Below are positions 31,169 through 63,782 of a stretch of 64,000 nucleotides of DNA, piece after piece; the first letter of the stretch is position 1, and every line of letters starts with the position of its first letter. The notes below the pieces were generated by a model. The model was not told the origin of the DNA. It ran no database searches and saw nothing but the letters and a program-made list of their open reading frames with translations. The translations under genes and the position numbers were made by a program. The stretch is from Shinella zoogloeoides (GTDB taxonomy: Bacteria; Pseudomonadota; Alphaproteobacteria; Rhizobiales; Rhizobiaceae): the NCBI RefSeq assembly GCF_022682305.1, contig NZ_CP093528.1, positions 4,208,501-4,272,500 of the forward strand. Reading direction: 5' to 3'.

Positions 31169-31176
31169 GGCCAGTC

Positions 31177-31602: not shown

Positions 31603-31610
31603 GGAAGACT

Positions 31611-33379: not shown

Positions 33380-33438
33380 ACCATCTAACGATCTGGCGTC
33401 ATCGCCCGCGAAATGACCCAGCCAATGAGGTCTCCTGA

Positions 33439-34638
33439 ATGGATCACAGCCCAGAGCAGTCAAAGGCAAGCGTCTCCGAGGTATTCCGCGTCTTCCTGAA
33501 GCTAGGGCTCACCTCCTTCGGAGGCCCGATCGCGCATCTGGGCTATTTCCGCGACGAGCTGGTGACGCGGCGAAAGTGGCTGAGCGAAAGCGCCTATGCC
33601 GATCTGGTGGCGCTATGTCAGTTCCTGCCCGGACCCGCCTCCAGCCAGGTCGGCTTTGCGCTCGGCCTGACACGGGCGGGTTGGGGCGGCGCGTTTGCCG
33701 CTTTCCTCGCCTTCACCCTGCCATCGGCTCTGATCCTCCTCGCGCTCGCCATGACGGCAACGCGGCTGGAAAGCCCGCTTGCGCTAGGCGTCCTGCATGG
33801 ACTCAAGATCGTCGCCGTCGCTATCGTGGCGCAAGCCGTGTGGGGCATGGCGAAAAACCTCTGCCCCGACAAGGAGCGCGCCACCATCGCGGTCGTGGCC
33901 GTGCTTCTGCTTGCCTGGGCGCCAAGCGCCATCGGAATGATGGCCGCCATACTGCTGGGCGTAATCGCGGGGTTGGCCCTCGGCAAGGGACAGGTCACGA
34001 TCGGCGACCATCTGCCGGTCCCGGTCTCACGCAAAGCTGGCCTGGCGGCCTTCGCGCTGTTCGTCGCCTTGCTGATTGGCCTGCCGGTCCTGGCGGGGCA
34101 AGCGCAAGGATGGGCGCTCGCCGACAGCTTCTATCGCGCCGGTTCACTGGTCTTTGGTGGCGGTCACGTGGTGCTGCCGTTGTTGCAGGCCGAAACCGTC
34201 ACACCAGGATGGGTCTCCAATGGCGCCTTTCTCGCAGGCTATGGCGTGGCGCAGGCGGTGCCAGGACCGCTCTTCACCTTCGCCGCCTGGCTCGGGGCGA
34301 TCATGGGGCCCGCCCCCAATGGTGCTGCCGGTGCGGCAATCGCTCTGGTTGCCCTCTTCCTGCCGGGCTTCCTGATCCTGATCGGCGCGCTGCCCTTCTG
34401 GGATCAGTTGCGCCGCACGATATGGGCGCAATCGGCCATGCAGGGCGCGAATGCCGCCGTCGTCGGCATTCTCGGAGCGGCGCTCTATTCGCCCGTCTTC
34501 ACCAGCGCGATCGGCGGCATGCCGGACTTCGCACTGGCCCTGATTTGCTTTGTGGCGCTGATGGTCTGGAAAGCTCCGCCATGGGTTGTCGTACTATTGG
34601 CGGCCACGGGCGGGGCGGCGCTCACCTTGGTGTCGTGA
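33439..34638 (+). CDS. chrA: Chromate efflux transporter ChrA
   Basis: 399 residues, long-chain CHR family with duplicated halves: 'FGGPIAHLGYFRDE' with 'FLPGPASSQVGFALG' in the first, 'FGGGHVVLPLLQ' with 'AVPGPLFTFAAWLG' in the second. It expels chromate. About 60 bases separate it from arsH with the same direction, so it may share the ars promoter or have its own. No chrB regulator is present. Confidence 0.92.
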   Translation: MDHSPEQSKASVSEVFRVFLKLGLTSFGGPIAHLGYFRDELVTRRKWLSESAYADLVALCQFLPGPASSQVGFALGLTRAGWGGAFAAFLAFTLPSALILLALAMTATRLESPLALGVLHGLKIVAVAIVAQAVWGMAKNLCPDKERATIAVVAVLLLAWAPSAIGMMAAILLGVIAGLALGKGQVTIGDHLPVPVSRKAGLAAFALFVALLIGLPVLAGQAQGWALADSFYRAGSLVFGGGHVVLPLLQAETVTPGWVSNGAFLAGYGVAQAVPGPLFTFAAWLGAIMGPAPNGAAGAAIALVALFLPGFLILIGALPFWDQLRRTIWAQSAMQGANAAVVGILGAALYSPVFTSAIGGMPDFALALICFVALMVWKAPPWVVVLLAATGGAALTLVS

Positions 34639-34666: not shown

Positions 34667-35683
34667 TTATGTCGCCGAGCGATTTGCGCGTTCGGCGATG
34701 TCCGCGCATCGCTCGATCAAAACCTCGAACGGCTCGGCATCATCGAAGAGCAGCCCATCCTCGACCATGCGCACATAGTCTTCCTCCAGCGCCTTGGCGC
34801 CATCGCCGGCGGGGACCAGTTGCAAGCCGCCATTGACGGCTGCGCCATAGTCGATCGACGTGCGGTCAGCGGCCTTTTCAGCGAAGAACATCGACTTGTG
34901 GCGGGCAACCGCGTTCGCCAGTTCGCGATCCGCGAAGGCAGCGTCCGCAAGACCGGCTTCATCGAGCCGGGCGACATCATGCCAGTGCCGGGCGAAGCGG
35001 TCCCCACGCAGCCGGTCCTGGTGGCAGAAGACATGGATGGCGGTCGCCTTCTCCCAGAACGTCCGCTCGGCGTGCATGACGCGCGGACGCGCTGTCGGGA
35101 ATATCAGGCCATCGATCAGGCCAGAGGCATCGCAGACGACATCGCGCAAACTGGCCGGCTCGCCCGTCGACCGCGCGCCGAACTCCAGCATGACACTGGG
35201 GGCGACATAGCCTGATCCGGTTGCGGTCGGTTCGTAGTCGATAAAGAGCCGATCACCTTCGACGCGGATCGCCGCAGCCAAACCTTCCGTTGCCAGGGCG
35301 TCAGCGATCACCGGCTGCACGACAGCGGCGACCCATTCCGGCAGCCGGCGACGAACCTCGCTGGACCAGCGCTTTTCCTCGCTTCGCGTTTTCGGCAGGG
35401 CCTCGCCATTGTCCCCGACCAGGTCGGGCGCAATCGCTCGGATGTCGTAGGTCAGATCGACATCTTCGGAAAACCGATGGATGACCTGATAGGCTTTCGA
35501 CAGCGATGTGCCGCCCTTGAACACCAGATGCTCACCAAGCGGCGCCGCGTAGAGCGTGCTCAACGCCCACACCACCCAGACGTCCTTTTCGAACAGATGC
35601 GCGGGCCGCCCCGAACGATCCGCCGCGACGCCAAGGGCGTCGCGGCGATCCTGAGCCGAGAGGAGCAGGAAGGTTTCAGCCAT
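34667..35683 (-). CDS. AbiEii-type nucleotidyltransferase toxin
   Basis: 338 residues. Nucleotidyltransferase core: 'HLVFKGGTSLSKAYQVIHRFSEDVDL' has the GG-S and D-x-D of the family, with C-terminal helices. It is the toxin half of AbiE type IV toxin-antitoxin systems, which cause abortive infection and can stabilise mobile elements. It overlaps the antitoxin gene by eight bases. ATG 35683 was chosen because the longer frame overlaps the antitoxin further. Confidence 0.85.
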   Translation of the reverse strand: MAETFLLLSAQDRRDALGVAADRSGRPAHLFEKDVWVVWALSTLYAAPLGEHLVFKGGTSLSKAYQVIHRFSEDVDLTYDIRAIAPDLVGDNGEALPKTRSEEKRWSSEVRRRLPEWVAAVVQPVIADALATEGLAAAIRVEGDRLFIDYEPTATGSGYVAPSVMLEFGARSTGEPASLRDVVCDASGLIDGLIFPTARPRVMHAERTFWEKATAIHVFCHQDRLRGDRFARHWHDVARLDEAGLADAAFADRELANAVARHKSMFFAEKAADRTSIDYGAAVNGGLQLVPAGDGAKALEEDYVRMVEDGLLFDDAEPFEVLIERCADIAERANRSAT

Positions 35684-36269
35684 AGGCCGCCTTCCCGACA
35701 CTCTGTGCCAACCATGTCGGAAGCTGCGGCGCGGCCGCCACCAATTCGCCAAAGGCGCTGGGCGGCAACTTTCGCTTCAATGTCCTGAGCGCAGTTTCGG
35801 CTTTCTCCGGGCCGAGCCAGGCCAAGGCCCGGACGGCCTCTCCCGCCGGCCGGTTGGCCAGAGCCAATTGCCAGCGCGGGGCATGGCGCAATTCCACGAC
35901 CTGCTTGCCGAGATTCATCTTCCGGCTGCGCCCGGAGGTCAGATAGACCGAACGAACCGGCACCTGCGTCGTCAGGCCAAGGGCGTTTGCGGCCGCCGCA
36001 CCGTTCGAGACGATGGTCTCGCCACGCTGGCTGGCAAGGGCTTCCACAGCCTGTTCCACCGACGGCGCGCGCGTCCCGAACCGACTGGCGACGGGGCGGA
36101 GATAGACACCGCGCCCAGCCCGGATGAGTTGTTCGCGCTCGGCCAGACGCGACAAGGCCTGGTCCACCGCGGCGCGATTGCCGAGATGGAGCAGCCCTTT
36201 AGCGGACACAGAAGCGCCCTCGGGCAAACCCGCCATATGCGACAGAATCTGTTCGGTCAGCCGTGTCAT
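35676..36269 (-). CDS. AbiEi-type antitoxin/transcriptional regulator
   Basis: 197 residues. An N-terminal winged HTH ('QILSHMAGLPEGASVSAKGLLHLGNRAAVDQALSRLAEREQLIRAGRGVYLRP') is followed by an AbiEi C-terminal domain ('NGAAAANALGLTTQVPVRSVYLTSG'). AbiEi proteins repress their own operon and neutralise AbiEii. AGGAGAAGG precedes ATG 36269. Transcribed away from ardC. Confidence 0.85.
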   Translation of the reverse strand: MTRLTEQILSHMAGLPEGASVSAKGLLHLGNRAAVDQALSRLAEREQLIRAGRGVYLRPVASRFGTRAPSVEQAVEALASQRGETIVSNGAAAANALGLTTQVPVRSVYLTSGRSRKMNLGKQVVELRHAPRWQLALANRPAGEAVRALAWLGPEKAETALRTLKRKLPPSAFGELVAAAPQLPTWLAQSVGKAAYG

Positions 36270-36279
36270 CGTCCTTCTC

Positions 36280-36309
36280 CTGTCAGGAACATACGTAGTT
36301 TTCTGACAG
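36280..36309 (-). promoter_or_regulatory. Candidate AbiEi operator
   Basis: Inverted repeats CTGTCAG (36280-36286) and CTGACAG (36303-36309) with a 16-base spacer lie directly upstream of the antitoxin start. Other AbiEi proteins bind inverted repeats in their own promoters, so this is the likely autoregulation site. Confidence 0.5.
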
Positions 36310-36428
36310 TTTTCAAGGAAACACATCCGGGACGGAAAGCTGGGACAAGGGGGAAAGCCTTCCCCTGCGGTCGAGCCTTGGGTCTCGCCCGACCCCTTCT
36401 GCGGGGAGATCCCCGCAACGCCCCCCAT

Positions 36429-36502
36429 AGAGTGAGAGTGCGGACGGGTTTCCCGTGACGGGTTGAGGGCTGGAGAAGAGGTCTCCGGCGCCCGTCGCGG
36501 AG
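36429..36502 (+). promoter_or_regulatory. Structured leader of ardC (leader family 1, copy A)
   Basis: AGAGTGAGAG (36429-36438) is followed by a nested hairpin: outer stem GACGGG (36457-36462)/CCCGTC (36491-36496), inner stem GCTGGAGA (36469-36476)/TCTCCGGC (36482-36489). The outer stem ends directly before the ribosome binding site (GCGGAG). Two further copies precede the genes at 38313 and 41679 (see findings). Confidence 0.65.
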
Positions 36503-36509
36503 AACCGCG

Positions 36510-37460
36510 ATGTTCAGGAAAAACCACGGCGCCCGCGCCAGTTCAGGCCGGACGAGCCTCTATGACGACATCACCGACAAGATCATCGCCGAGCTTGAGG
36601 CGGGCCGCGCGCCCTGGGTCCAGCCATGGGGATCGGCCGCAGCCAAGGCGCCGCTCGCCATGCCCCGCAACGCTGCGACCGGACGGCACTATTCCGGCAT
36701 TAACGTGCTCATCCTCTGGGGCGCGGTGATCCAGCACGGCTTCCCTAGCCAGAGTTGGCTCACCTTCCGCCAGGCGCTGTCGCTGGGCGGCAATGTCCGC
36801 AAGGGCGAGCATGGCACGACCGTCGTCTATGCCGACCGCTTCACGCCGGAGGACGAGAAGCGCCGCGCCCGCGAGACCGGCGAGGACGCCGCCGCGTTTC
36901 CCTTCCTCAAGCGCTTCACCGTCTTCAACGCCGCGCAATGCGACGGCCTGCCGGACGACATCGCCGCCATCGCTCCACCGCCGCCGCCTGGCCTCATCGA
37001 GCCGCGCGTCGAGGCTCTGATCGAAGCGACGGGCATCGATTTCCGCATCGGCGGCGATCGCGCCTTCTATGTGCCGGCGCACGACTATGTGCAGGTGCCC
37101 CCGCCGCAGGCCTATTTCGAGCCGATCAACTGGCACCGCACGGCCCTGCACGAACTCGGGCACGCCAGCGGCCATGCCTCCCGGCTCGGCCGCGATCTGA
37201 CCGGCGGTTTCGGCACGAAGAAATACGCCTTCGAGGAGTTGGTGGCCGAGATCAATGCGGCCTTCTGCTGCGCGTCTCTCGGCATCGTACCGACCGTCCG
37301 CCATGCCGACTATATCGGCGCCTGGCTCGAGGTGCTGCGCGAGGACAATCGCGCCATCGTCCGCGCCGCCTCCCAGGCCAGCAAGGCGGCCGATTGGCTG
37401 CTCGGCTTCCTGCCGGATGCGGATGTCGGCATGGCCGGCCACGGACGGGAAGCGGCGTGA
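36510..37460 (+). CDS. ardC: ArdC-like antirestriction protein
   Basis: 316 residues. N-terminal ssDNA-binding domain ('LYDDITDKIIAELEAGRAPWVQPW', 'YSGINVLILW', 'GGNVRKGEHG') and C-terminal metallopeptidase-like domain with 'HELGH' at 214-218 and 'EELVAEINAAF'. ArdC proteins protect incoming conjugative DNA from restriction. Preceded by the repeated structured leader with GGAG seven bases before the ATG. Confidence 0.9.
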   Translation: MFRKNHGARASSGRTSLYDDITDKIIAELEAGRAPWVQPWGSAAAKAPLAMPRNAATGRHYSGINVLILWGAVIQHGFPSQSWLTFRQALSLGGNVRKGEHGTTVVYADRFTPEDEKRRARETGEDAAAFPFLKRFTVFNAAQCDGLPDDIAAIAPPPPPGLIEPRVEALIEATGIDFRIGGDRAFYVPAHDYVQVPPPQAYFEPINWHRTALHELGHASGHASRLGRDLTGGFGTKKYAFEELVAEINAAFCCASLGIVPTVRHADYIGAWLEVLREDNRAIVRAASQASKAADWLLGFLPDADVGMAGHGREAA

Positions 37461-48335: not shown

Positions 48336-48393
48336 TGATAGCAATTCTTATATTATGCCATCATCGCTATCAAACTTGCAGGAGGCGCTATCA
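48336..48393 (+). promoter_or_regulatory. Toxin-antitoxin operator repeats
   Basis: TGATAGC (48336-48342), GCTATCA (48366-48372) and GCTATCA (48387-48393) lie before and into the antitoxin start codon. The last two are 21 bases apart, two helical turns. They fit binding of an RHH antitoxin dimer pair in an otherwise AT-rich promoter. Confidence 0.65.
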
Positions 48394-48647
48394 TGCCCGC
48401 AGTCACGATCAGGAATCTGTCCGACGCGACGCATCGCGCCCTCAAGGTGCGGGCGGCGCAGCACGGCCGCAGCGCCGAAGCGGAAATGCGCGACATCCTC
48501 GAAATGGCTGTCCGCCCCGATACGCGCCTCCGGCTCGGCACGGCGCTCGCGGAACGCAGCCGTCGCCTTGGCTTGACCAATGAGGATGTCGAGGCCCTCG
48601 ACCAGGCGCGTGACAAGGCGCCCGCCAAGCCGATGAGCTTCGAATGA
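48393..48647 (+). CDS. FitA/VapB-like RHH antitoxin
   Basis: 84 residues. The N terminus 'MPAVTIRNLSDATHRALKVRAAQHGRSAEAEMRDIL' is a FitA-type ribbon-helix-helix DNA-binding domain; the C-terminal tail would wrap the toxin. Overlaps the toxin by ATGA. AGGAGG precedes the start, interleaved with the operator. Confidence 0.88.
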   Translation: MPAVTIRNLSDATHRALKVRAAQHGRSAEAEMRDILEMAVRPDTRLRLGTALAERSRRLGLTNEDVEALDQARDKAPAKPMSFE

Positions 48648-49066
48648 TCCTCCTCGATACCAATGTCGTATCGGAGGCGATGAAGCCCGCTCCCGACGAT
48701 GCCGTGCGCGCATGGCTCGACGAACAGGCGGCGGAAACACTCTTTCTCTCCAGCGTCACCATCGCCGAGCTGATGTTCGGCATCGGCGCGCTCCCCGAGG
48801 GCAAGCGCAAGGAGCGTCTCACCGAAGCCCTGGATGGGGTGATGGAACTGTTCGCAGACCGCGTCCTCCCGTTCGATGTCGATGCTGCGCGCCGCTATGC
48901 GGATCTCGCCGTCAAAGCCCGAACGGCCGGGAAAGGCTTCCCTACTCCCGACGGCTATATCGCGGCGATCGCAGCCGCCAAGGGCTTTGCCGTCGCCACG
49001 CGCGACAACAGCGCATTCGAGGCCGCGAATGTCACGGTCATCGATCCCTGGAAGGCCGGGCGCTGA
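48644..49066 (+). CDS. FitB/VapC-like PIN-domain toxin
   Basis: 140 residues. PIN ribonuclease with the acidic set D5 ('LLDTNVVSE'), E42 ('AELMFG'), D103 ('FPTPDGYIAAIA') and D121 ('ATRDNSAFE'). Such toxins cut tRNA or rRNA; in an ICE the pair favours retention of the element. Confidence 0.9.
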   Translation: MILLDTNVVSEAMKPAPDDAVRAWLDEQAAETLFLSSVTIAELMFGIGALPEGKRKERLTEALDGVMELFADRVLPFDVDAARRYADLAVKARTAGKGFPTPDGYIAAIAAAKGFAVATRDNSAFEAANVTVIDPWKAGR

Positions 49067-51283: not shown

Positions 51284-51303
51284 GGTGATCATGCATGATC
51301 ACC
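51284..51303 (+). promoter_or_regulatory. Perfect palindrome over the XRE gene start (candidate operator)
   Basis: GGTGATCATGCATGATCACC is a perfect 20-bp palindrome covering part of the ribosome binding site (GGAGG 51281-51285) and the start codon at 51295. A dimeric XRE repressor bound here would silence its own gene; the RNA could also fold to hide the start. Confidence 0.6.
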
Positions 51304-51561
51304 GCCCGACAATCACGGGCCGCACGCGCGTTGCTGGGTTGGACACAGGAGACGCTCGCTGACAAGGCCCGCCTATCGCTGACCGCGCTCAAGCGCCTCG
51401 AATCCGAAAGCGGGCTCGATGTGTACGAGACGACGCGCGATCAGGCACGCAGGGCCTTGGAAGCTGCCGGCATCGTCTTCCTGTCGACCGACCGAGGGCA
51501 AGGAGTGCTGCTGGTCGATGATCGCGGAAACAAGCCGAACCGATCTACAGGCTTACGCTGA
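51295..51561 (+). CDS. XRE-family HTH regulator (QseC-like)
   Basis: 88 residues, almost only an HTH_XRE domain ('ITARQSRAARALLGWTQETLADKARLSLTALKRLESE'), then 'RRALEAAGIVF'. It stands directly before a single-domain DUF2285 gene, the same partnership as the QseC repressor and QseM antiactivator of ICEMlSym of Mesorhizobium. By analogy it sets the level of the DUF2285 antiactivator. The assignment rests on size, fold and neighbourhood. Confidence 0.75.
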   Translation: MITARQSRAARALLGWTQETLADKARLSLTALKRLESESGLDVYETTRDQARRALEAAGIVFLSTDRGQGVLLVDDRGNKPNRSTGLR

Positions 51562-51657
51562 CCTGTGGGCAGCCAGGTTCCTCATCATTCGCACTGCCTC
51601 CATTTCGGATCAAACATGGATAATAGACAGGCACCGCATATTCGCCGAGTCTGCACC

Positions 51658-51918
51658 ATGACCGCACCATTCCAGGACCTAGCGCCATCGGGGCAAGATC
51701 TCACCGATTACGACAAGTCGCACGCCAAACTATACATGCGCTTGCTGGATGCGGCCGCTGACGGCGCGCATTGGGAGGAAGCCGTGCGGGTGCTGTTCGA
51801 CCTCGATCCCGCCCGTGAACCCGAACGCTGCCGCCGCATCCATGACAGCCACCTCGAACGCGCCCGCTGGATGACACACACTGGCTATCGGCACCTCCTG
51901 CGACCGGCTCACCGCTGA
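51658..51918 (+). CDS. Single-domain DUF2285 protein (QseM-like antiactivator)
   Basis: 86 residues. 'YDKSHAKLYMRLLDAAADGAHWEEAVRVLFDLDP' plus 'RARWMTHTGYRHLLRP' follow the DUF2285 pattern, including the closing GY-x-HLL-R that is also at the end of the FseA-like protein next door. In the Mesorhizobium ICE a lone DUF2285 protein (QseM) blocks the activator FseA. The start is uncertain: ATG 51658 has a poor ribosome binding site, ATG 51616 would add 14 residues. Confidence 0.65.
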   Translation: MTAPFQDLAPSGQDLTDYDKSHAKLYMRLLDAAADGAHWEEAVRVLFDLDPAREPERCRRIHDSHLERARWMTHTGYRHLLRPAHR

Positions 51919-52047: not shown

Positions 52048-52389
52048 ATGAGGCCCGATACATCGAACTGGCGAGACGACCGCAGCTACGATTTCTTCGA
52101 TACACTTCCGATCGAGGGTCTCGCCTGGGAGTGCCTTCGCAGATACCGCCCTTATCAGGACGATTACGCCAGACTGGTCGATGCTGGCGCCGAGACTCAG
52201 CCGCTGCCTGACGACAGGCAGCAGCGCTGGGGGTTGCGATTTCCCTGCAAGACCAGGTCGTTCTGCCCTACAGCAACAGGTGGTGTGGTCGCCGCAGAGC
52301 GATCCCGCCGTCCTCTTTCTGACAGCGCGGCCGAGCTTTCTGCCGTCCAGCTCAAACAGCCTCGCCGACAGGTTCGCTGCGGGACGTGA
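52048..52389 (+). CDS. DUF6499 N-terminal part of a frameshift-split activator (FseA-like, zero frame)
   Basis: 113 residues in the zero frame. Residues 1-66 ('MRPDTSNWRDDRSYDFFD', 'LAWECLRRYRPYQDDYARL', 'WGLRFP') form the DUF6499 domain. After the CCC codon at 52243-52245 the zero frame turns into unrelated sequence and stops at 52389, while the +1 frame continues the conserved protein. GGGAGAG lies upstream of ATG 52048. See the joined feature. Confidence 0.8.
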   Translation: MRPDTSNWRDDRSYDFFDTLPIEGLAWECLRRYRPYQDDYARLVDAGAETQPLPDDRQQRWGLRFPCKTRSFCPTATGGVVAAERSRRPLSDSAAELSAVQLKQPRRQVRCGT

Positions 52390-52810
52390 TGGCCCTGAAG
52401 GAGCCTATGCCGGTCTTCCCGAGCACGACCTCCAGCTACTCTTCCTACCCGGCATATCCGCACACGACCAGCTTGCGGCGGTCGTCCCCATCGATGACGA
52501 CATCCTCGATCGCATTGATGCGCTGACACGCCTCGCGCGCGCCTGGCTCCAGCGTCCGCCATTGCGCGACACGCGCATGACCGCCGAGCAGCGCCGCCGC
52601 TTTCGCCTCAAACTTCGTGCTGCTGACGGCCGCATGAACGGCGCGACCTATCGCGACATCGCCATCGCAATCTATGGCGCGGCGCGCATCGATACTGACC
52701 CTTGGAAGACCTCGCCGCTGCGGGATGCCGTGATCGCCTTCGCCGAAGCCGGATTGGCCCTCATCGATGGCGGCTATCTGCACCTGCTTCGGCATCGTCG
52801 GCGCACCTAG
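52048..52810 (+). CDS. DUF6499-DUF2285 transcription activator, joined by a +1 shift (FseA-like)
   Basis: Skipping one base (52246) after CCC 52243-52245 joins 66 codons of DUF6499 to 188 codons ending in DUF2285 ('RRFRLKLRAADGRMNGATYRDIAIAIYG', 'GGYLHLLRHRR'), a 253-residue protein. The junction reads Arg-Phe-Pro|Ala-Arg-Pro, as in unbroken homologues as I recall them. In ICEMlSym of Mesorhizobium the activator FseA is made by programmed +1 frameshifting between msi172 and msi171 and switches on the excisionase gene rdfS. Here an excisionase-like gene follows directly. A random mutation or sequencing error is the alternative. Confidence 0.75.
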
Positions 52811-52946
52811 CCTGCGCCACCGACAGGGGTGGGGAATTTAGCCATCCCAAGTCCCCCATCCATCCCGCCGGAGGTTCTCCGCCACCGTTGTCGCTGTCAG
52901 CCGCTGATCGCCAGCGGCCCCCAGCAACCCCACGGAGGCCCGCCCC

Positions 52947-53228
52947 ATGCGACCCGATACCGCCGCGCTCCCGCCACGCTACCTGCGGACCAAGGAAGCC
53001 GCTGAATTTCTCAGCCTGTCCGCCCGCACCCTCGAAAAACACCGCACCTACGGCACTGGTCCGGCCTATCACAAACTCGGCGGGCGCGTCGTCTATTCAG
53101 TCGACGATCTGGAGACCTGGGCCGAGCGCGGCGCCGTGACCTCGACGTCCGATCCGCGCGGCTCCGTGCTTCCCGCAAAGCGCCAGACGCTACCGACCGG
53201 CCAGATCGCCGGCCGACACGCACGCTGA
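52947..53228 (+). CDS. Excisionase-like HTH protein (RdfS-like recombination directionality factor)
   Basis: 93 residues, MerR/AlpA-type winged HTH ('RYLRTKEAAEFLSLSARTLEKHRTYGTGPAYHKLGGRVVYSVDDLETWAERG'). Proteins of this type bend att DNA and turn the integrase toward excision. Its place between the FseA-like gene and repA/traF matches rdfS in the Mesorhizobium ICE. CGGAGG precedes the ATG. The 136 bases before it should contain the promoter for the activator. Confidence 0.78.
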   Translation: MRPDTAALPPRYLRTKEAAEFLSLSARTLEKHRTYGTGPAYHKLGGRVVYSVDDLETWAERGAVTSTSDPRGSVLPAKRQTLPTGQIAGRHAR

Positions 53229-53246: not shown

Positions 53247-54407
53247 ATGGTGGTGCGTCGTCGTGACCCTTCGGAGCGTGGGCAGCTCGACCTGTTTCGC
53301 GCACTTCCCGGCGACTTCGCGCCACGAGACGCGCAGGATCTCATGGCCTATCCCTTCTTCTCCCTCTCGAAATCACACCGCATAGCGCCGATCAACTTTT
53401 CGGCGGGCGGCGTCTCCATCCGGGTAGAGGCCGTTCCCGATCATGGCATGGCCACGATCTGGGACGCCGACATCCTGATCTGGGCCGCCAGCCAGATCGT
53501 CGAGGCCCGCGACGCGGGCCTGCGCACCTCGCGTCTGATGGCGGCGACACCCTATGAGATCCTCACCTATGTCGGGCGCGGCACATCCATGCGCGACTAT
53601 CAGCGGCTCAAGGCCGCGCTCGACCGGCTGCAATCGACCACCATCTCGACGTCGATCCGCCAGCCCGCCGAAGGCCGCCGTCACCGCTTCTCGTGGATAA
53701 ACGAGTGGCAGGAGCGCACGGATCGCCAAGGACGACCGGATGGCATCGAGCTGATCGTCCCCGACTGGTTCTACAAGGCCGTCCTCGATGACGCGCTCAT
53801 CCTCACCATCGATCCGGCCTATTTCGATCTCACCGGCGGCCTCGATCGCTGGCTCTACCGCATCGTGCGCAAACACGGCGGCCGTCAGCGCGGCGGCTGG
53901 CGTTTCGACCTACGCCACCTCCACCTCAAATCCGGCAGCCTGTCGCCGTTCAAGCGCTTCGCCTTCGAACTGCGTGACATCGTGCGGCGCCAACCACTGC
54001 CCGGCTACGTCCTGTCGCTCGAGGTGGAAATCGGCGGGCGCACGCTGCTGGCTTTCGAGCCACTGGCCGCCTATGGAAAACCTGTGGATGGCCTCGTGCT
54101 ATCGGGAACCCGACCTATCGTGCCATCGGGAACCCGAGGCTCGTGCCATCAGGAACCCAGTCCGGCTTTAACGTCTGGAAATCGTGGGCGGATTCGCGCC
54201 CTTAACTTAGAGTCTAACCAAGAATCTAACTTTGAAGAGCGCGCGCGCGATGTGGAAAACCTCATCCGTACCGCCGCAGCGAACCTCCGCGCCGCCGGCA
54301 AATCACCGCTCAAGGGTGCTCCAGCAGCTCAGACGGGCCGGAAAGAGAGCGAACCGGCTTCCCCCGATCAGCTTCCGCTCCTCGATCGGCCTGGAGGTGC
54401 GCGATGA
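53247..54407 (+). CDS. repA: Replication initiator protein A (RPA family)
   Basis: 386 residues. 'QLDLFRALPGDFAPRDAQDLMAYPFFSLSK' and 'TPYEILTYVGRGTSMRDYQRLKAALDRLQSTTISTSIR' mark the RPA plasmid initiator family with winged helices. The C-terminal third is low-complexity and encoded by iteron-like repeats (see oriV feature). It suggests that the excised circle replicates. Followed by parA with ATGA overlap. Confidence 0.88.
   Translation: MVVRRRDPSERGQLDLFRALPGDFAPRDAQDLMAYPFFSLSKSHRIAPINFSAGGVSIRVEAVPDHGMATIWDADILIWAASQIVEARDAGLRTSRLMAATPYEILTYVGRGTSMRDYQRLKAALDRLQSTTISTSIRQPAEGRRHRFSWINEWQERTDRQGRPDGIELIVPDWFYKAVLDDALILTIDPAYFDLTGGLDRWLYRIVRKHGGRQRGGWRFDLRHLHLKSGSLSPFKRFAFELRDIVRRQPLPGYVLSLEVEIGGRTLLAFEPLAAYGKPVDGLVLSGTRPIVPSGTRGSCHQEPSPALTSGNRGRIRALNLESNQESNFEERARDVENLIRTAAANLRAAGKSPLKGAPAAQTGRKESEPASPDQLPLLDRPGGAR
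54094..54240 (+). other. Candidate origin: iteron-like repeats and AT-rich block inside repA
   Basis: Three direct repeats of TCGTGCYATCRGGAACCC at 54094-54111, 54118-54135 and 54141-54158 (steps 24 and 23 bases) are followed by an AT-rich stretch at about 54207-54238 with two TCTAAC copies. A DnaA-box-like TGTGGATGG lies just upstream (54083-54091) and TGTGGAAAA at 54250-54258. This is the layout of an iteron origin. Confidence 0.55.
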
Positions 54408-55057
54408 TCGTCGCGTTCCTCAACCAGAAAGGCGGTGTCGGCAAGACGACGCTGGCGCTCAACCTTGCCGGCGAACTCGCCGGGCGCGGTCAGCGCGTCA
54501 CCCTGATCGACGCGGACCCACAGGGCTCGGCCCTCGACTGGTCTGAGCAGCGCAGCCATGAGGGCCTGCCGCGCCGGTTCGGCGTCGTCGGCCTGGCGCG
54601 CGACACGCTCCACCGCGAAGCGCCGGAACTGGCCCGCGATGTCGACCATGTCGTCATCGACGGCCCGCCGCGTGTCGCAGCCCTCATGCGCTCGGCGCTG
54701 CTCGCCGCCGACCTCGTGCTGATCCCGGCGCAGCCGTCGCCGCTCGACGGCTGGGCATCGGCCGAGATGCTGGCGCTGCTCCGCGAAGCCCGCGTCTATC
54801 GCCCGGAACTGGTCGCCCGCTTCGTGCTCAATCGCTGCGGTGCGCGCACCGTCCTGGCCCGCGAGACCGCCGAGACCCTGGCCGATCACGATCCACCGTT
54901 GCTCGCCACCACCATCGGCCAACGTATCGCCTTCGCCGCCGCCGCGCAGACCGGCCGCCTGGTCGCCGAACTCGCCGATGCGACATCGGCCGCACGCGAG
55001 ATCGCGGCCTTCGCCGATGAACTCCTGCGTCTGCGGATCGACGGGGGCGCACAATGA
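54404..55057 (+). CDS. parA: ParA family partition ATPase
   Basis: 217 residues, small ParA type without an N-terminal HTH. Deviant Walker A 'KGGVGKTT' (9-16), 'LIDADPQGSALDW' and 'VVIDGPPRVAALMRSALLAADLVLIP'. With the RHH protein encoded next it forms a type Ib-like partition pair for the circular form of the ICE. Confidence 0.93.
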   Translation: MIVAFLNQKGGVGKTTLALNLAGELAGRGQRVTLIDADPQGSALDWSEQRSHEGLPRRFGVVGLARDTLHREAPELARDVDHVVIDGPPRVAALMRSALLAADLVLIPAQPSPLDGWASAEMLALLREARVYRPELVARFVLNRCGARTVLARETAETLADHDPPLLATTIGQRIAFAAAAQTGRLVAELADATSAAREIAAFADELLRLRIDGGAQ

Positions 55058-55305: not shown

Positions 55306-55823
55306 CCGGCACTGCGGCTCCCCGCATGCGCGGCGGCCCGCTGCCGTCAGCGCTCCCCAATGACAGCATGACCCACGTCGAACTGACGTGGATCGAGAAG
55401 AAGATCGAATACTGGATCAGGTTCGGCCGTGAGGCGCATGAACAGATCCTCGACCGCCGCCGGCGTGTCGTCTCCTTCCGTCCGAACACCGTATTCGCGT
55501 TCGTGCGATGGGCGGCCAACGACTTCGGCACGATCATCTCGCGCATCGACATCGTGCGCGGAGTCGAGCCCGGAGAGCCCTACCAGACGCTGCCTTTCGT
55601 CCGGCCGGGCGGTGAAATCCTGCTCAGGATCGACGGATGGCCGAAGGTCGAAGACGTGCTGCGCCACGTCGATGCCATCGAAGCGATCGGCATCGAGGCG
55701 GACGCCGTTTCGCCGGAACACTGGCGTCACGTCCACAATCGGATGGCGGCTGGACATCAGCCGCGCCCCTATACGCTCGACCAGCATCGCGCCTTCCTCC
55801 TGCGCCGGAGGACGCGGTCGTGA
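55302..55823 (+). CDS. DUF2840 domain protein
   Basis: 173 residues: 'THVELTWIEKKIEYWIRFG' start of the domain, 'WAANDFGTIISRIDIVR', 'RLVGL'-free C terminus ending 'LRRRTRS'. DUF2840 proteins occur regularly between parA and traF in alphaproteobacterial conjugative elements; function unknown. ATGA and GTGA overlaps on both sides. Confidence 0.85.
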   Translation: MTGTAAPRMRGGPLPSALPNDSMTHVELTWIEKKIEYWIRFGREAHEQILDRRRRVVSFRPNTVFAFVRWAANDFGTIISRIDIVRGVEPGEPYQTLPFVRPGGEILLRIDGWPKVEDVLRHVDAIEAIGIEADAVSPEHWRHVHNRMAAGHQPRPYTLDQHRAFLLRRRTRS

Positions 55824-56365
55824 CGCGCGCCGGTCTCTTCCTCGTCATGGCTCTCGCGACCGCGGGCATCAGCTATCCGGCGCTCACCCCGATGCCGATC
55901 AAGCTCCTGTGGAACGCATCGGCGAGCGCCCCCATCGGCTTCTACACGATCGACGTCGATGGCCCGTTCGACGTCACCGATCTCGTTGCCGTCGATGCGC
56001 CCGAGCCGCTCGCGACCTTTATGGCCGAACGCGGCTATCTTCCCAAAGGCGTCCCGCTGCTGAAGCGCATTTTCGGCGTTTCCGGGCAGACCGTTTGCCG
56101 CTCGAACCTCTCCGTCACGATCGACGGCGTCGAGATGGGCGATGCGCTGCCGCGTGATCGCGCAGGGCGCGACCTGCCGATCTGGCAGGGCTGCCGCCGT
56201 ATCCCGACCGGCGAAGTCTTCCTCATGAACTGGCAGGTCCGCGACAGCCTAGACGGTCGCTATTTCGGCCTGACCTCCACCGACCAGATCATCGGCCGCG
56301 CCGTCCCCCTGTGGACCGACGAGGACGGAACGGGCCGCTTCGAATGGCGCGCACCGACGCGATGA
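55820..56365 (+). CDS. traF: TraF-like conjugation signal peptidase (S26)
   Basis: 181 residues from a GTG start overlapping the DUF2840 stop (GTGA). 'WNASASAPIGFY' carries the serine nucleophile (S36) and 'PLLKRIFG' the lysine base (K82). In RP4 TraF matures and circularises the TrbC pilin, and a trbC gene is present downstream. One N-terminal membrane segment. Confidence 0.9.
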   Translation: MTRAGLFLVMALATAGISYPALTPMPIKLLWNASASAPIGFYTIDVDGPFDVTDLVAVDAPEPLATFMAERGYLPKGVPLLKRIFGVSGQTVCRSNLSVTIDGVEMGDALPRDRAGRDLPIWQGCRRIPTGEVFLMNWQVRDSLDGRYFGLTSTDQIIGRAVPLWTDEDGTGRFEWRAPTR

Positions 56366-57565: not shown

Positions 57566-57808
57566 GCTGCGGAAGCACCCGTCGCAGTCTGTCGCATTCC
57601 TGCGTGACATGGAGGGCACAAGGGGGAGAGGCAGGCATCACAACCGCACGATGGCAGGATAAAAGGCCGCACATTGCGCGGCGGTCGGGCGGTTGTTTTT
57701 GCAGGATATTTTGGCGCGCTCCGCACATTGCCGTGCTCATCGGCAATGTGCGCCTGACGCCCAATTGCCTGTATCAGCGCGATTTTTCGCACATTGCGGC
57801 CTCGCGTC
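57566..57808 (+). other. Candidate oriT region before the relaxase gene
   Basis: 243 bases without a credible gene. GCACATTGC occurs at 57669-57677, 57723-57731 and 57789-57797. The middle copy is part of a perfect inverted repeat GCACATTGCCG (57723-57733)/CGGCAATGTGC (57741-57751) with a 7-base loop. Hairpin, repeats and position next to the relaxase start fit an origin of transfer. The nick site is not identified. Confidence 0.55.
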
Positions 57809-59548
57809 ATGGCCGATGACCACGAGTTTCGTGTTCGGCCTGGGCGCATCCGGTCAACCCGCGCGCAGTCGGCTCGGCCCTTCATCGCGCAGGCGCTGGC
57901 CGCTGCGAAGAAGGCGGGCGGCTGCGTCTCGCGCTCCGGGCGCGTCGTTGCCGCCAATCGCTCGCGCTTCGGCCGCGGCCAGCGCGCCAGCATCCAGGCG
58001 AACCGCCTCATCACCGCGCGCACGCGCGGCGCAGTCATCAAGGCCCGCGTCGTGCGGCACTCCGGCCGCACCGCGCCGCTTGGCACGCATCTCGATTATC
58101 TCCGCCGCGATGGCGTGACCCGTGACGGAGAAAAGGCCCGGCTGTTCGGGCCGGGAACGGAGGAAGCTGATGGCCGCGCCTTCGCCGGGCGATGCGAGGA
58201 TGATCGCCATCATTTCCGCTTCATCGTCTCACCGGACGACGCCGTGGAGATGTCGGACCTCAAGTCCTTCACCCGCGATCTTGTCGGCCAGATGGAAAGG
58301 GATCTGGACACGCGGCTCGATTGGGTCGCGGTCGATCACTGGAACACCGAGCATCCTCACGTCCATCTGATCGTGCGCGGCGTCCGCGACGACGGCCAGG
58401 ACCTCGTGATCTCGCGCGACTACATCAAGGAGGGCATGCGTGATCGCGCGCGTGACCTCATCACACAGGAGCTTGGCCCGCGCACGGATCTCGATATTCG
58501 CCGCACGCTCGAACGCCAGATCGAGGCGGAGCGCTGGACACAGCTTGATCGGCAGCTTGTCCGCGACGCTGGAAAGATCGGCGTCATCGATGTCGCCCCG
58601 GAGGTCGGCCGCCAGCCCGACGCCTACGCCGTCGAGAAAGTGGGCCGCCTGCGCAAACTCGCAGCCCTCGGCCTCGCCAGTGAAGTCGGACCTGGCCAGT
58701 GGATGATCGACGATCAGGCTGAGGTGACGCTGCGCCAGCTCGGCGAACGCGGCGACATCATCAAGCGCATGCACCGCGCACTCACCGAACGCGGTATCGA
58801 CCGCGGCTCGGGCAACTACGTCCTGGCAGGGGAAAGCCTCGATGTGCCGGTCATCGGCCGTCTGGTCGAGCGCGGCCTCGATGACGAGCTGAAGGGAACG
58901 GCCTACGCCGTGGTCGACGGCGTCGATGGCCGGACCCACCACATCCGCTTGCCGCATCTCGATGCGGCGGGGGACAGCGCGCCGGGCTCGATCGTCGAGC
59001 TGCGCACCTTCGAAGATGCTCGCGGCGAACGCCGCGTCGCGCTCGCGGTCCGCTCCGATCTCGATCTCCAGCATCAGGTGAACGCCTCGGGCGCGACCTG
59101 GCTCGACCGGCAATCCATCTCCCGCGAACCCGTCGCCATGTCGGAGGGCGGCTTCGGCGCCGAGGTGCGGCACGCGATGCGACAACGGGCGGAGCATCTG
59201 GTCCACGAAGGTCTCGCCGAGCAGCAAGGCCGCCGCGTCATCTTCAGCCGCAACCTGATCGAGACGCTTCGCCGCCGCGAGGTGGGCGCTGTTGCCGACC
59301 GGCTGGCGAAGGAGACAGGCCAGCCGTTCAAAGCGGCCGGCAATGGCGAATATGTCGCCGGCACCTATCGCCAGCGCATGACGCTCGCATCCGGCCGCTT
59401 CGCGATGATCGATGACGGCCTCGGCTTCCAGCTCGTGCCCTGGTCGCCGTCCCTCGAAAGCCAGCTCGGCAAGCACGTCTCCGGGGTCGCCCGAGGCGAC
59501 GGCGGTATCGACTGGAGCTTCGGCCGCAAGCGGGGGCTCGGCCTCTAA
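57809..59548 (+). CDS. Relaxase (VirD2-like, DUF3363)
   Basis: 579 residues. Conserved core: 'TAPLGTHLDYLRRDGVTRDGEKARLFG' and the metal-binding 'TEHPHVHLIVRG' histidines (near 182-186), followed by a DUF3363 C-terminal part. It nicks oriT and leads the strand into the recipient. Comparable to RlxS of the Mesorhizobium ICE. ATG 57809 matches homologue starts; a GTG or ATG further up overlaps the repeats. Confidence 0.9.
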   Translation: MADDHEFRVRPGRIRSTRAQSARPFIAQALAAAKKAGGCVSRSGRVVAANRSRFGRGQRASIQANRLITARTRGAVIKARVVRHSGRTAPLGTHLDYLRRDGVTRDGEKARLFGPGTEEADGRAFAGRCEDDRHHFRFIVSPDDAVEMSDLKSFTRDLVGQMERDLDTRLDWVAVDHWNTEHPHVHLIVRGVRDDGQDLVISRDYIKEGMRDRARDLITQELGPRTDLDIRRTLERQIEAERWTQLDRQLVRDAGKIGVIDVAPEVGRQPDAYAVEKVGRLRKLAALGLASEVGPGQWMIDDQAEVTLRQLGERGDIIKRMHRALTERGIDRGSGNYVLAGESLDVPVIGRLVERGLDDELKGTAYAVVDGVDGRTHHIRLPHLDAAGDSAPGSIVELRTFEDARGERRVALAVRSDLDLQHQVNASGATWLDRQSISREPVAMSEGGFGAEVRHAMRQRAEHLVHEGLAEQQGRRVIFSRNLIETLRRREVGAVADRLAKETGQPFKAAGNGEYVAGTYRQRMTLASGRFAMIDDGLGFQLVPWSPSLESQLGKHVSGVARGDGGIDWSFGRKRGLGL

Positions 59549-59574: not shown

Positions 59575-61566
59575 ATGTCCGCGACCAAAATCCTGTGGGG
59601 CCAGATCGCCATCGTCTTCCTCATCGTGCTGCTCACCACCTGGGCGGCGACGCAATATGTCGCATGGAGCCTCGGCTTTCAGGCGCAGCTCGGCGCGCCC
59701 TGGTTTTCCCTGTTCGGCCTACCGATCTACTATCCGCCGGCGTTCTTCTGGTGGTGGTATTTCTACGACGCCTACGCGCCGGAGGTCTTCGCCAAGGGTG
59801 GGATGATCTCGGCGTCGGGCGGCTTCATCGCCATAGCCGTCGCCATCGGCATGTCGGTCTGGCGCGCCCGCGAAGCGAAAAGCGCAGCGACCTACGGCTC
59901 CGCCCGCTGGGCCGGAAAGGACGAGGTGAAAGCCGCGGGCCTGCTCAGTCCCGACGGTGTCGTGCTCGGCCGCTATGACCGCGACTATCTCCGTCATGAC
60001 GGCCCCGAGCATGTGCTTTGCTTCGCCCCGACCCGATCGGGCAAGGGCGTCGGCCTGGTTGTGCCGTCCCTGTTGACCTGGCCGGGCTCGGCCATCGTCC
60101 ACGACATCAAAGGGGAAAACTGGCAGCTCACGGCCGGTCTTCGCGCCCGGCACGGCCGCGTTCTGCTGTTCGACCCGACCAACCCCAAATCGTCGGCCTA
60201 CAATCCGCTGCTCGAGGTGCGCCGCGGCGAATGGGAAGTCCGCGACGTTCAGAACATCGCCGACATCCTGGTCGATCCCGAAGGCTCGCTCGAAAAGCGG
60301 AACCATTGGGAGAAGACCAGTCATGCCCTGCTGGTCGGCGCCATCCTGCATGTCCTCTACGCCGAAGACGACAAGACATTGGCCGGCGTCGCCGCTTTCC
60401 TGTCCGATCCGAAGCGCCCGATCGAGTCGACGCTTGCCGCGATGATGAAGACCAGCCACCTCGGCGAGGCAGGGCCGCACCCCGTCATCGCCAGCGCCGC
60501 GCGCGAACTACTCAACAAATCGGACAACGAACGCTCGGGCGTGCTCTCCACCGCCATGTCGTTTCTCGGCCTCTACCGCGATCCTGTCGTCGCCGAGGTG
60601 ACGCGGCGCTGCGACTGGCGGATCAGCGACATGGTGGGCGGCAAGCTCCCGACCACGCTCTACCTTGTCGTGCCGCCGTCCGACATCAACCGCACCAAAC
60701 CGCTGATACGCCTGATCCTCAATCAGGTCGGTCGCCGTCTCACCGAGGATCTGCAAGCGAAGGCCGGGCGGCATCGCCTGCTGCTCATGCTCGACGAGTT
60801 TCCCGCCCTCGGCCGCCTCGATTTCTTCGAGTCCGCGCTGGCTTTCATGGCGGGCTACGGCCTCAAAAGCTTTCTGATCGCTCAATCGCTAAACCAGATC
60901 GAGAAGGCTTACGGCCCGAACAATTCGATCCTCGACAACTGCCATGTGCGCGTTTCCTTTGCGACGAACGACGAAAGGACCGCGAAGCGGGTCAGCGACG
61001 CGCTCGGAACCGCGACAGAGATGAAGGCGATGAAGAATTACGCCGGGCATCGGCTCTCGCCCTGGCTCGGCCATTTAATGGTGTCGCGCTCGGAGACCGC
61101 GCGACAGCTCCTGACACCAGGCGAGATCATGCAGCTCCCGCCGAGCGACGAGATCGTCATGGTCGCCGGGACGCCGCCGATCCGGGCGAAGAAGGCGCGC
61201 TACTATGAAGATGCCCGCTTCAAGGAACGCATCATGTCACCGCCGGGACTGGCGCGGCCTGCTGAAGGTCGGCCCGACGATTGGAGCAAGCTGCCGATCC
61301 CCGCGCGCCCGGAGATGACCGAAAACGCTGCGCCAACGACGAGCAGTGACGATGAAGAGGATTCCACCGAGTCCGAGCGTCGGCATCAGCCCGAACTCAA
61401 CCGGGTGAACCCCATCGAAAAGAAGGCGCCGATCGACAATGAGTTTGAGATCGATTTGCCTGACGACACAGAGGACGCAGCCGCGCGCAACCAGCGGCTG
61501 ACCCGCGTCATGCGCGGCGTTGCCCGCCAGGTCTCGCTCGATCCCAATGACGGCATGGAGTTGTAG
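59575..61566 (+). CDS. traG: Type IV coupling protein TraG/VirD4
   Basis: 663 residues. Two N-terminal membrane segments (about 8-30 and 45-100), Walker A 'APTRSGKGVG' (from about 151), 'VHDIKGENW', Walker B 'LLLMLDEFPALGRLDFF' (about 400-417). It brings the relaxosome to the mating channel. The C-terminal 90 residues are acidic and low-complexity. Confidence 0.93.
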   Translation: MSATKILWGQIAIVFLIVLLTTWAATQYVAWSLGFQAQLGAPWFSLFGLPIYYPPAFFWWWYFYDAYAPEVFAKGGMISASGGFIAIAVAIGMSVWRAREAKSAATYGSARWAGKDEVKAAGLLSPDGVVLGRYDRDYLRHDGPEHVLCFAPTRSGKGVGLVVPSLLTWPGSAIVHDIKGENWQLTAGLRARHGRVLLFDPTNPKSSAYNPLLEVRRGEWEVRDVQNIADILVDPEGSLEKRNHWEKTSHALLVGAILHVLYAEDDKTLAGVAAFLSDPKRPIESTLAAMMKTSHLGEAGPHPVIASAARELLNKSDNERSGVLSTAMSFLGLYRDPVVAEVTRRCDWRISDMVGGKLPTTLYLVVPPSDINRTKPLIRLILNQVGRRLTEDLQAKAGRHRLLLMLDEFPALGRLDFFESALAFMAGYGLKSFLIAQSLNQIEKAYGPNNSILDNCHVRVSFATNDERTAKRVSDALGTATEMKAMKNYAGHRLSPWLGHLMVSRSETARQLLTPGEIMQLPPSDEIVMVAGTPPIRAKKARYYEDARFKERIMSPPGLARPAEGRPDDWSKLPIPARPEMTENAAPTTSSDDEEDSTESERRHQPELNRVNPIEKKAPIDNEFEIDLPDDTEDAAARNQRLTRVMRGVARQVSLDPNDGMEL

Positions 61567-61570
61567 CACC

Positions 61571-62020
61571 ATGCCCGGACGCAAGAAGAAGGTGCCGATT
61601 TCCGTCTATCTCGACCCCGACATCATGGCGACGCTATCGGACTATGCAGGCCGTCGCGAACAACCGCTCTCCCTGATCGCCGAGGCCGCCATCGCGTCCT
61701 TCCTGTCGCCGGACGACGCGGAGCGGCGTGAAGCAGTGATCGCCAAACGCCTCGACCAGATCGATCGCCGTCTCAACCGCATGGAGCGCGACATCGGGAT
61801 CTCCGTCGAGACCATGGCCGTATTCATCCGGTTCTGGCTCAACACGACGCCGGCGCTGCCCGAGCCCGCAGCCCAGGCAGCGCGCGCCATGGTCGGGAAG
61901 CGCTACGAGGCGTTCATCGCGGCCCTTGGACGGCGCTTGGCTCAGGGACCGAAACTTCGGCAGGAGATCGTTGAAGATGTCGGCGAGTCGCCGCCGAACG
62001 CGACAGAGAGCGATCCATAG
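61571..62020 (+). CDS. CopG/RHH-domain conjugation protein
   Basis: 149 residues. N-terminal RHH ('VPISVYLDPDIMATLSDYAGRREQPLSLIAEAAIASFL'), then a coiled coil ('RLDQIDRRLNRMERDIG') and a helical C terminus. A small gene of this type sits between traG and trbB in related elements and may regulate trb genes or help the relaxosome. Four bases after traG. Confidence 0.85.
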   Translation: MPGRKKKVPISVYLDPDIMATLSDYAGRREQPLSLIAEAAIASFLSPDDAERREAVIAKRLDQIDRRLNRMERDIGISVETMAVFIRFWLNTTPALPEPAAQAARAMVGKRYEAFIAALGRRLAQGPKLRQEIVEDVGESPPNATESDP

Positions 62021-62188
62021 GCTTCAGCGCGCGTGGATCAATAGCATCGTCCGACCGCCGTTCTCCTGTATTTGCACGCCACGCTGCTACGACGGTCGAT
62101 ACTTGTTGAATCGGCTCAATTCGCGGCTCTTTTAATCACCCCGATCCGGGGACCCTCTTTTCCAGCCCCGTCAGGAAGCGGGGCAGGA

Positions 62189-63172
62189 ATGACCAATATC
62201 AGCCAGAAGCCGGAGGCGTTCGCGCGCGGTGCGCGCATGCTTCGCACCGCGCTCGGCTCGACCATCACCCATCTTCTCGAAGACCCGGTCGTCGTCGAAA
62301 TCATGCTGAACCCGGACGGCCGTCTCTGGGTAGATCGCCTCTCCGAAGGGCTGGCCGATACGGGTGAGACGCTGTCGCCCGCCGATGGCGAGCGCATCGT
62401 GCGGCTGGTTGCTCACCATGTCGGCGTCGAGGTGCATCCGCGCAGCCCGCGAGTCTCGGCCGAGCTTCCTGAGACGGGAGAGCGGTTCGAGGGCTTGCTG
62501 CCACCCGTTGTCGCCGCACCGACCTTCGCCATCCGCAAGCCCGCCGTCGCAATCTTCACGCTCGACGATTATGTGGCCGCCGGAATCATGTTCGCCGACC
62601 AGGCGGCGACGCTACGCGCAGCCGTGATGGCGCGCGCCAATATCCTTGTCGCGGGCGGCACCTCCACTGGCAAAACCACGCTGACCAATGCGCTTCTGGC
62701 CGAGATCGCCAAGACGGCGGATCGCGTCGTCATCATCGAGGATACCCGCGAGCTTCAGTGCGCCGCGCCCAATCTTGTCGCCATGCGGACCAAGGATGGA
62801 GTGGCCACGCTCTCGGAGCTGGTCCGCTCTTCGCTACGCCTGCGCCCCGATCGCATTCCCATCGGCGAGGTGCGCGGCTCTGAAGCTCTCGATCTCCTGA
62901 AAGCATGGGGAACCGGGCACCCCGGCGGCATCGGCACGATCCACGCCGGGAGCGGCATCGGCGCGCTGCGCCGCCTTGAACAACTCATCCAGGAGGCCGT
63001 CGTCACGGTCCCGCGCGCCCTGATCGCCGAGACCATCGATCTCGTTGCCGTCCTCTCCGGCCGCGGCTCCGCGCGCCGGCTCGCCGAACTCGCCCGTGTC
63101 GAAGGGCTCGGCCCGGACGGCGACTACGCCATCACCCCCGCAACCCTTGACCGCACAGGAGCGCCAACATGA
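62189..63172 (+). CDS. trbB: Conjugal transfer ATPase TrbB
   Basis: 327 residues, VirB11-type. Walker A 'GGTSTGKTT' (about 156-164), Asp box '[10 protein letters not shown]', Walker B '[12 protein letters not shown]', His box '[14 protein letters not shown]'. ATG 62189 with CAGGA upstream; a longer frame from 62072 is unsupported. First of the trb mating-pair genes. Confidence 0.94.
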
Positions 63173-63501
63173 TCCGCACCACTATGCGCGTTCGCCGCTA
63201 TGCCGCGACGGCCGCCGCCTTCACCTACATCAACCTCGTCCTCGTTCCCGCCGCCCATGCCTCCGGCTCGTCCATGCCGTGGGAAGCACCGCTCCAGAAA
63301 ATCCTCGAATCCATCGAAGGGCCGGTCGCCAAGATCGTCGCCGTCATCATCATTATCGCCACTGGCCTGGCGCTGGCGTTCGGTGACACGTCCGGCGGCT
63401 TCCGGAAGCTGATCCAGATCGTCTTCGGTCTCAGCATCGCGTTTGCGGCGTCGAGCTTCTTCCTGTCGTTCTTCTCATTCGGCGGCGGGGCGCTGGTCTG
63501 A
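63169..63501 (+). CDS. trbC: Conjugal pilin TrbC
   Basis: 110 residues. Signal peptide, then two hydrophobic segments ('IVAVIIIIATGLALAFG', 'FGLSIAFAASSFFLSFF') as in VirB2/TrbC. Expected to be processed by TraF. ATGA overlap with trbB. Confidence 0.92.
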   Translation: MIRTTMRVRRYAATAAAFTYINLVLVPAAHASGSSMPWEAPLQKILESIEGPVAKIVAVIIIIATGLALAFGDTSGGFRKLIQIVFGLSIAFAASSFFLSFFSFGGGALV

Positions 63502-63782
63502 TGGCGGCGGCGCTCGAACAACTCAACGCGGTGCCGGGTTTCACCGTCCCGGTTCACCGGGCGCTGACCGAGCACATTCTGCTCGGCGGCGCACCGCGCG
63601 CGCTCGCCATCCTGAACGGCACGCTGGCCGGAGCCGTGGGCCTCGGCCTGCGCCTCTGGCTCGTGGGTCTGCTGATCTGGGTCGTTGGCCATATCGCAGC
63701 CGTGTGGGCTGCAAAGCGCGATCCGCTCTTCGTCGAGGTCGGCCGCCGCCACCTGCGCATCCCCGCTCATCTGTCCGTCTGA
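63501..63782 (+). CDS. trbD: Conjugal transfer protein TrbD
   Basis: 93 residues, VirB3-like: 'PVHRALTEHILLGGAPRALAILNGTLAGAVGLGLRLW' then a second hydrophobic part and 'FVEVGRRHLRIPAHL'. Shares one base with the trbC stop (TGATG). Inner-membrane partner of TrbE. Confidence 0.92.
   Translation: MAAALEQLNAVPGFTVPVHRALTEHILLGGAPRALAILNGTLAGAVGLGLRLWLVGLLIWVVGHIAAVWAAKRDPLFVEVGRRHLRIPAHLSV

Follow-up and report, generated by a model that had tools for sequence, protein, structure and literature searches.

A probable FseA-type excision activator gene with a +1 frameshift in Shinella zoogloeoides, and a UUU-Y slip site indicated by comparison of its family

The DNA analysed here (the window) is a stretch of 64,000 nucleotides from Shinella zoogloeoides. 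On its plus strand, from 52048 to 52810, lies a gene that is divided between two reading frames. The zero-frame ORF (52048-52389, 113 aa) encodes a DUF6499 domain, matched by PF20109 (formerly DUF6499) at residues 7-66 (E 2.1e-21, 76.5 bits against a cut-off of 23.8), and then a tail of 48 codons past a UUU codon, which is read when no shift takes place and has no domain match in Pfam. The +1-frame part (52244-52810, 188 aa) encodes a middle region and a DUF2285 DNA-binding domain (PF10074, DUF2285/RovC; E 2.5e-33, 115.3 bits against a cut-off of 26.4). ORFs and Pfam matches agree with the first-pass annotation, made from the letters alone, in placing the two parts in different frames. The DUF6499 helix of this copy is AWECLRRY, the FseA-type pattern being AWEFLRRN-like. 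NCBIfam has no match for either part. PF10074 is named after RovC of Yersinia, which has a DUF2285-type domain in common with the C-terminal part and activates a type VI secretion system (PMC10359603; this and the other PMC papers are cited throughout from excerpts); the sequence match of that part to the RovC structure (6xz5) reaches E 0.63 only.

Upstream on the same strand are a QseC-like HTH regulator gene (51295-51561; PF01381 HTH_3, E 6.2e-5), named by its place next to qseM as in PMC8627217, and a QseM-like gene (51658-51918, with an alternative GTG start at 51565). The latter is a putative FseA antiactivator, with a lone DUF2285 and no DUF6499; the ORF 51565-51918 matches QseM (PDB 7uqt, E 1.7e-19) and PF10074 (E 9.8e-7) and nothing in NCBIfam. 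Directly downstream of the split gene is an rdfS-like gene (52947-53228, plus strand) for a recombination directionality factor, as the first-pass annotation had it in calling this gene excisionase-like: it matches the winged-HTH protein RdfS (PDB 8dgl, E 2.3e-9) and PF12728 (E 7.9e-11), and scores only 19.8 bits with the NCBIfam excise model (cut-off 28.8). By analogy with RdfS, its product would stimulate integrase-driven excision.

Further on, all on the plus strand, come a repA-like gene (53247-54407; PF10134 RPA, E 4.8e-90), a parA-like gene (54404-55057; PF13614 and PF01656), a DUF2840 gene, a traF-like signal peptidase gene (55637-56365; PF10502, E 1.6e-25; TraF_Ti 79.6 bits, below the cut-off of 100.25), an RlxS-like relaxase gene (57794-59548; PF11843, E 2.3e-91; NF041267 RlxS, E 1.6e-178, 595 bits, below the cut-off of 850) and a block of traG-type, matchless, trbB-type, trbC-type and VirB3-like ORFs (59575-63782). 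Past the window there are TrbE, TrbK and TrbI matches and then a tyrosine integrase gene on the minus strand (L210, 18468-19730). The same region holds a large gene (L210, 8809-16274) whose product has Swt1-like HEPN and DUF499 domains, and beyond it are two ORFs that, from their first residues, look like an IS21-type pair. The likely arsenic cargo (30277-33379, plus strand) consists, by Pfam, of ArsR-type regulator, LMW phosphatase, SBF-family and FMN-reductase genes, which would correspond to arsR, arsC, acr3 and arsH; together with a chromate transporter gene the ars-type genes span 30277-34638. Conjugation genes and ars genes lie on the same stretch, which supports that part of the first-pass reading of an arsenic-resistance ICE. 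Two pairs of toxin-antitoxin type were also seen, an AbiEii-type gene with a neighbour weakly matching AbiEi (34667-36527) and a FitA-like/PIN pair (48393-49066). When the integrase flank was compared with the window for attachment-site repeats the longest exact match was 16 nt and none was convincing, so the ends of the element are not set.

The closest studied system is FseA (Msi172-Msi171) of ICEMlSymR7A in Mesorhizobium japonicum R7A, which likewise has its DUF6499 and DUF2285 parts in different frames, with a +1 shift linking them (PMC10359603). The two genes also share the WGL codons, a UGGGGG stretch next to the site (noted in PMC10359603), and accompanying RdfS and QseM homologues (PMC10359603, PMC11963761, PMC5882170). 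Gene order differs: in the window qseC-qseM, fseA and rdfS-repA-parA run in one direction, whereas in R7A fseA belongs to a traI2-msi172-msi171 operon near qseM-qseC, and rdfS to a separate rdfS-traF-msi107 operon (PMC5882170). Moreover, ICEMlSymR7A has a traR/traI quorum-sensing circuit, whereas no traR or traI was found on the element of the window: the only AHL synthase match in the genome is on contig C3, and none of the seven AHL-binding domains falls within the element's stretch of C1. We consider 52048-52810 to be, very probably, an FseA-type activator gene with a programmed +1 frameshift, its probable target being the adjoining rdfS. It is a newly recorded copy; the family, its programmed frameshift and the rdfS target are already published (PMC10359603). 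The full-length product probably switches on excision of the mobile element. The sequences themselves establish both frames and their conservation, the UUU-Y rule and the gene neighbourhood; the activity, DNA target, antiactivation and low shift rate of this copy we infer from the ICEMlSymR7A system.

Which codon slips? The codons at 52228-52248 are TGG GGG TTG CGA TTT CCC TGC, and the first-pass annotation had placed the join at CCC followed by T. Whether the ribosome slips by +1 after TTT or only after CCC, the resulting peptide is Phe-Pro-Ala-Arg-Pro, so the window copy alone cannot decide between them. We therefore turned to the family, with a sample of 209 loci drawn from family profile searches. 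It is part of the matches listed (ten others, all at 45 bits or below, were left out), and in many genomes only some of the candidates were scored. With our own profiles, 194 of the 209 DUF6499 matches have a downstream DUF2285 match and 15 do not; the second part is in the +1 frame in 161 pairs, in the same frame in 32 and in the +2 frame in one. These figures uphold the initial reading of an FseA-like split activator whose +1 break is conserved and belongs to the programmed type already published.

A W-G-x-x-x pattern, which leaves the codons free, was found in 153 of the 161 split genes, 149 of them distinct; these form 70 clusters at 60% identity and are related, so that the counts below are not independent. 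The fifth codon of the pattern, for Phe, is TTT in 149/149, against 291/1089 (27%) for the other Phe codons of the same genes, and in 3/20 in-frame homologues that have the pattern. The base that follows is C in 140 genes and T in nine, and the codon that it opens is CCC in 80 genes, CGC in 42 and something else in 27. Of the seven codons around the site, only UUU would retain its first two base pairs following a +1 slip in every one of the 149 genes. The slip is confined by the closest stop codons, which begin 5 nt before UUU in the +1 frame and 9 nt after its start in the zero frame. Taken across the family, the comparison favours UUU-Y as the slip site; in the window copy the most likely slip is from UUU to UUC at 52240-52243. 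The predicted site is CGA UUU C (52237-52243, plus strand), with CGA in the E site, UUU re-paired as UUC in the P site and base 52243 skipped. What the first-pass annotation gave as the product remains right; its slip codon is probably wrong, UUU-C one codon earlier being indicated.

Eight split genes lack the pattern; by eye, seven of them have UUU-Y, and the other (L040) has TGT CGC where the rest carry UUU-Y. One gene (L080) has UUU-C, yet shows a second frame change further downstream. In another (L173) UUU stands directly before UGA, a prfB-like arrangement on the UUU slip codon. L192 has an in-frame DUF6499-DUF2285 gene in which TTC GGC replaces TTT Y, a natural shift-free form. Another 55 loci do not enter the slip-codon counts, since one search peptide (AGGCDFPA) spans the site; the site is readable in 54 and the fifth codon, left free by the pattern, is TTT in 54/54. 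A 2015 PNAS abstract on FseA reportedly describes tRNA-Phe slippage from UUU to UUC, and the UUU-Y rule is independent support for a slip codon that has probably been published already. In excerpts of open papers including PMC10359603, PMC11963761, PMC5882170 and PMC9601964 the +1 shift is stated and the slip codon is not given. A literature search joining DUF2285 with programmed (ribosomal) frameshift(ing) by those words gave no match.

There is a small chance that it is instead tRNA-Pro that slips, from CCC to CCU at CCC-U (52243-52246), as the first-pass annotation held. CCC is present in the window copy, and its first two pairs survive a +1 slip in the 80 of 149 genes that have it after UUU, but the other 69 have CGC, CGT, CCT, TCC, TGC, CAC or another codon there, whose pairs a slip of the CCC type would break, and all 69 retain UUU. 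Relatives of the window gene are among those without CCC (TTT TCC in L230, TTT CGC in L232). Moreover, CCC is followed by G in 53 genes, by C in 14, by T in seven and by A in six, whereas tRNA-Pro(GGG) should favour C or T; and a +1 Pro codon following a pyrimidine necessarily yields CCC or TCC. Aligning the homologues, as had been proposed, in search of the same CCC-T break brings out UUU-Y as the common element (149/149) and not CCC. As a general slip codon CCC-U is rejected by the 149-gene comparison.

It is less probable still, and in our judgement very unlikely, that the locus makes two separate proteins with the DUF2285 part translated from an internal start. Azorhizobium offers a precedent in rihF1b and rihF1a, described as two proteins made with no frameshift (PMC9601964), and 104 of the 149 genes have an ATG, GTG or TTG where the +1 frame is open, within the range -90 to +60 relative to UUU. 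Such a start is lacking in the other 45, however, and is accompanied by a Shine-Dalgarno-like word in just 19 of 149 (a crude test, extending to +60); an internal start would also leave the conservation of UUU-Y unexplained.

That the gene is a pseudogene or the break a sequencing error, to which the matchless zero-frame tail might be thought to point, is scarcely credible, given that the same break recurs in L218-L226, nine records from other genera or strains with 94-99% nucleotide identity, in all six copies of the genome and in 161/194 pairs, and that both frames appear to be under purifying selection. Decay or an intact frame was looked for, as the first-pass annotation had suggested, in 17 close relatives with 77-99% nucleotide identity over the gene, some of them near-duplicates (L223/L224, L228/L229). 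All 17 keep both frames in an ungapped alignment; the +1 frame is open in every one and the frames used are free of stops. Together, the 17 pairings with the window copy give totals of synonymous and non-synonymous changes of 122 and 115 before the slip in frame 0 (34 and 202 if read in +1), and 464 and 322 after the slip in frame +1 (80 and 724, 113 and 715 in the other two frames). Judged by these codon changes both frames are under purifying selection, and the break is not decay. FseA is 96-99% identical at the protein level in Brevundimonas, Nitrospirillum, Sphingomonas, Rhizobium, Aureimonas and Novosphingobium records, and about 61% of 4709 homologues require the frameshift according to PMC10359603.

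The codons ahead of UUU are also biased. In the split genes the Gly codon of the pattern is GGG in 109/149 (12% of other Gly codons) and in 2/20 in-frame homologues with the pattern, the Leu codon is TTG in 87/149 (11% elsewhere), and the E-site codon is CGA in 91/149, that is 91 of the 104 Arg codons at this position (10% elsewhere). In the window copy the GGG belongs to a Shine-Dalgarno-like TGGGGG within the coding sequence (52228-52233, plus strand), 6 nt ahead of UUU. The A-site codons are not rare: CGC makes up 49% of other Arg codons and CCC 27% of other Pro codons. Downstream RNA structure was rejected as a stimulator; in the 75 of 149 split genes covered, mean z scores were -0.04 and -0.15 for two stretches after UUU, against -0.43 upstream and -0.44 in a control stretch farther on.

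A parallel is PA-X of influenza A (UCC_UUU_CGU), where the P-site tRNA-Phe likewise moves from UUU to UUC before a codon starting with C, and for which a wobble argument and an E-site effect have been put forward (PMC3498833). Unlike PA-X, the present site is in a bacterial gene, is followed by a codon that is not rare, and has GGG and E-site CGA enriched upstream. The release factor 2 gene prfB is another bacterial +1 slip with an upstream Shine-Dalgarno-like stretch, which there lies at a spacing of 3 nt, with a stop codon in the A site. The site described here differs in having a spacing of 6 nt and, usually, a sense codon in the A site.

The genome has twelve DUF2285 matches, six of them FseA parts and six weaker and QseM-type (one below the family cut-off), and six DUF6499 domains, every one split by +1 from its DUF2285 part. 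These make up six FseA/QseM/RdfS modules on C1 (L212-L216 and the window copy). In L213-L216 all five window queries (qseC, qseM, rdfS, repA and parA) are matched, the QseC-like gene having 76-84% identical copies at these four split genes; L212 has qseM on the opposite strand and rdfS, and over the 5.9 kb examined nothing that matches qseC, repA or parA. Ahead of rdfS each module has a different repeat, the first arms being, by eye, GTGGGGA, GTGCCGC, GGGCGA, GTGCGA, GTGTCGA and GTGAGGA.

In the window this putative FseA box is an unstranded inverted repeat, GGGGTGGGG, 19 nt, CCCCATCCA (52826-52862), with 7/9 arm matches, a score often reached by shuffles and not significant by itself. Its distance from the rdfS start exceeds the 62-67 nt given for one hexamer in PMC10359603. 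Of 134 distinct but related stretches that precede rdfS-like genes, 61 have a top-scoring inverted repeat with 8 or 9 of 9 arm positions matched, compared with 47 of 670 shuffled versions that keep base composition only; this top-scoring repeat does not always coincide with the box (L006 is an example). Different repeats in the six modules may mean separate specificities. As a rule for coexisting elements in general, different boxes are rejected: in another genome, G005, two modules (L024 and L030) share, by eye, GTGCCG-type arms. A combined proposal, which we put forward tentatively as possible rather than probable, is that the slip depends on a nucleotide-level cassette conserved through the family, GGGGG-YTG-CGA-UUU-C, with a better wobble pair in the P site and a weak E-site codon, and not on a rare A-site codon, and that the six modules are separately regulated, each with its own QseM-type gene and repeat.

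The mechanism that we propose is as follows. Most ribosomes that have passed the DUF6499 domain would stay in frame 0 and make the truncated protein. A minority would slip +1 at CGA-UUU-C, where tRNA-Phe would quit UUU and re-pair with UUC at 52241-52243, and would continue in the DUF2285 frame to give the full protein. This FseA-type protein would bind the inverted repeat upstream of rdfS and turn on the RdfS-like excisionase, which would enable excision of the element by the integrase; FseA could be blocked by the QseM-like product of the upstream gene, through binding to its DUF6499 domain. In the relative that has been studied, it is FseA that determines whether a large mobile element stays in the chromosome or leaves it. 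The same translational brake would act here on a stretch that also bears ars genes, and the family comparison names GGG, TTG and CGA as enriched codons besides the UUU-Y slip site.
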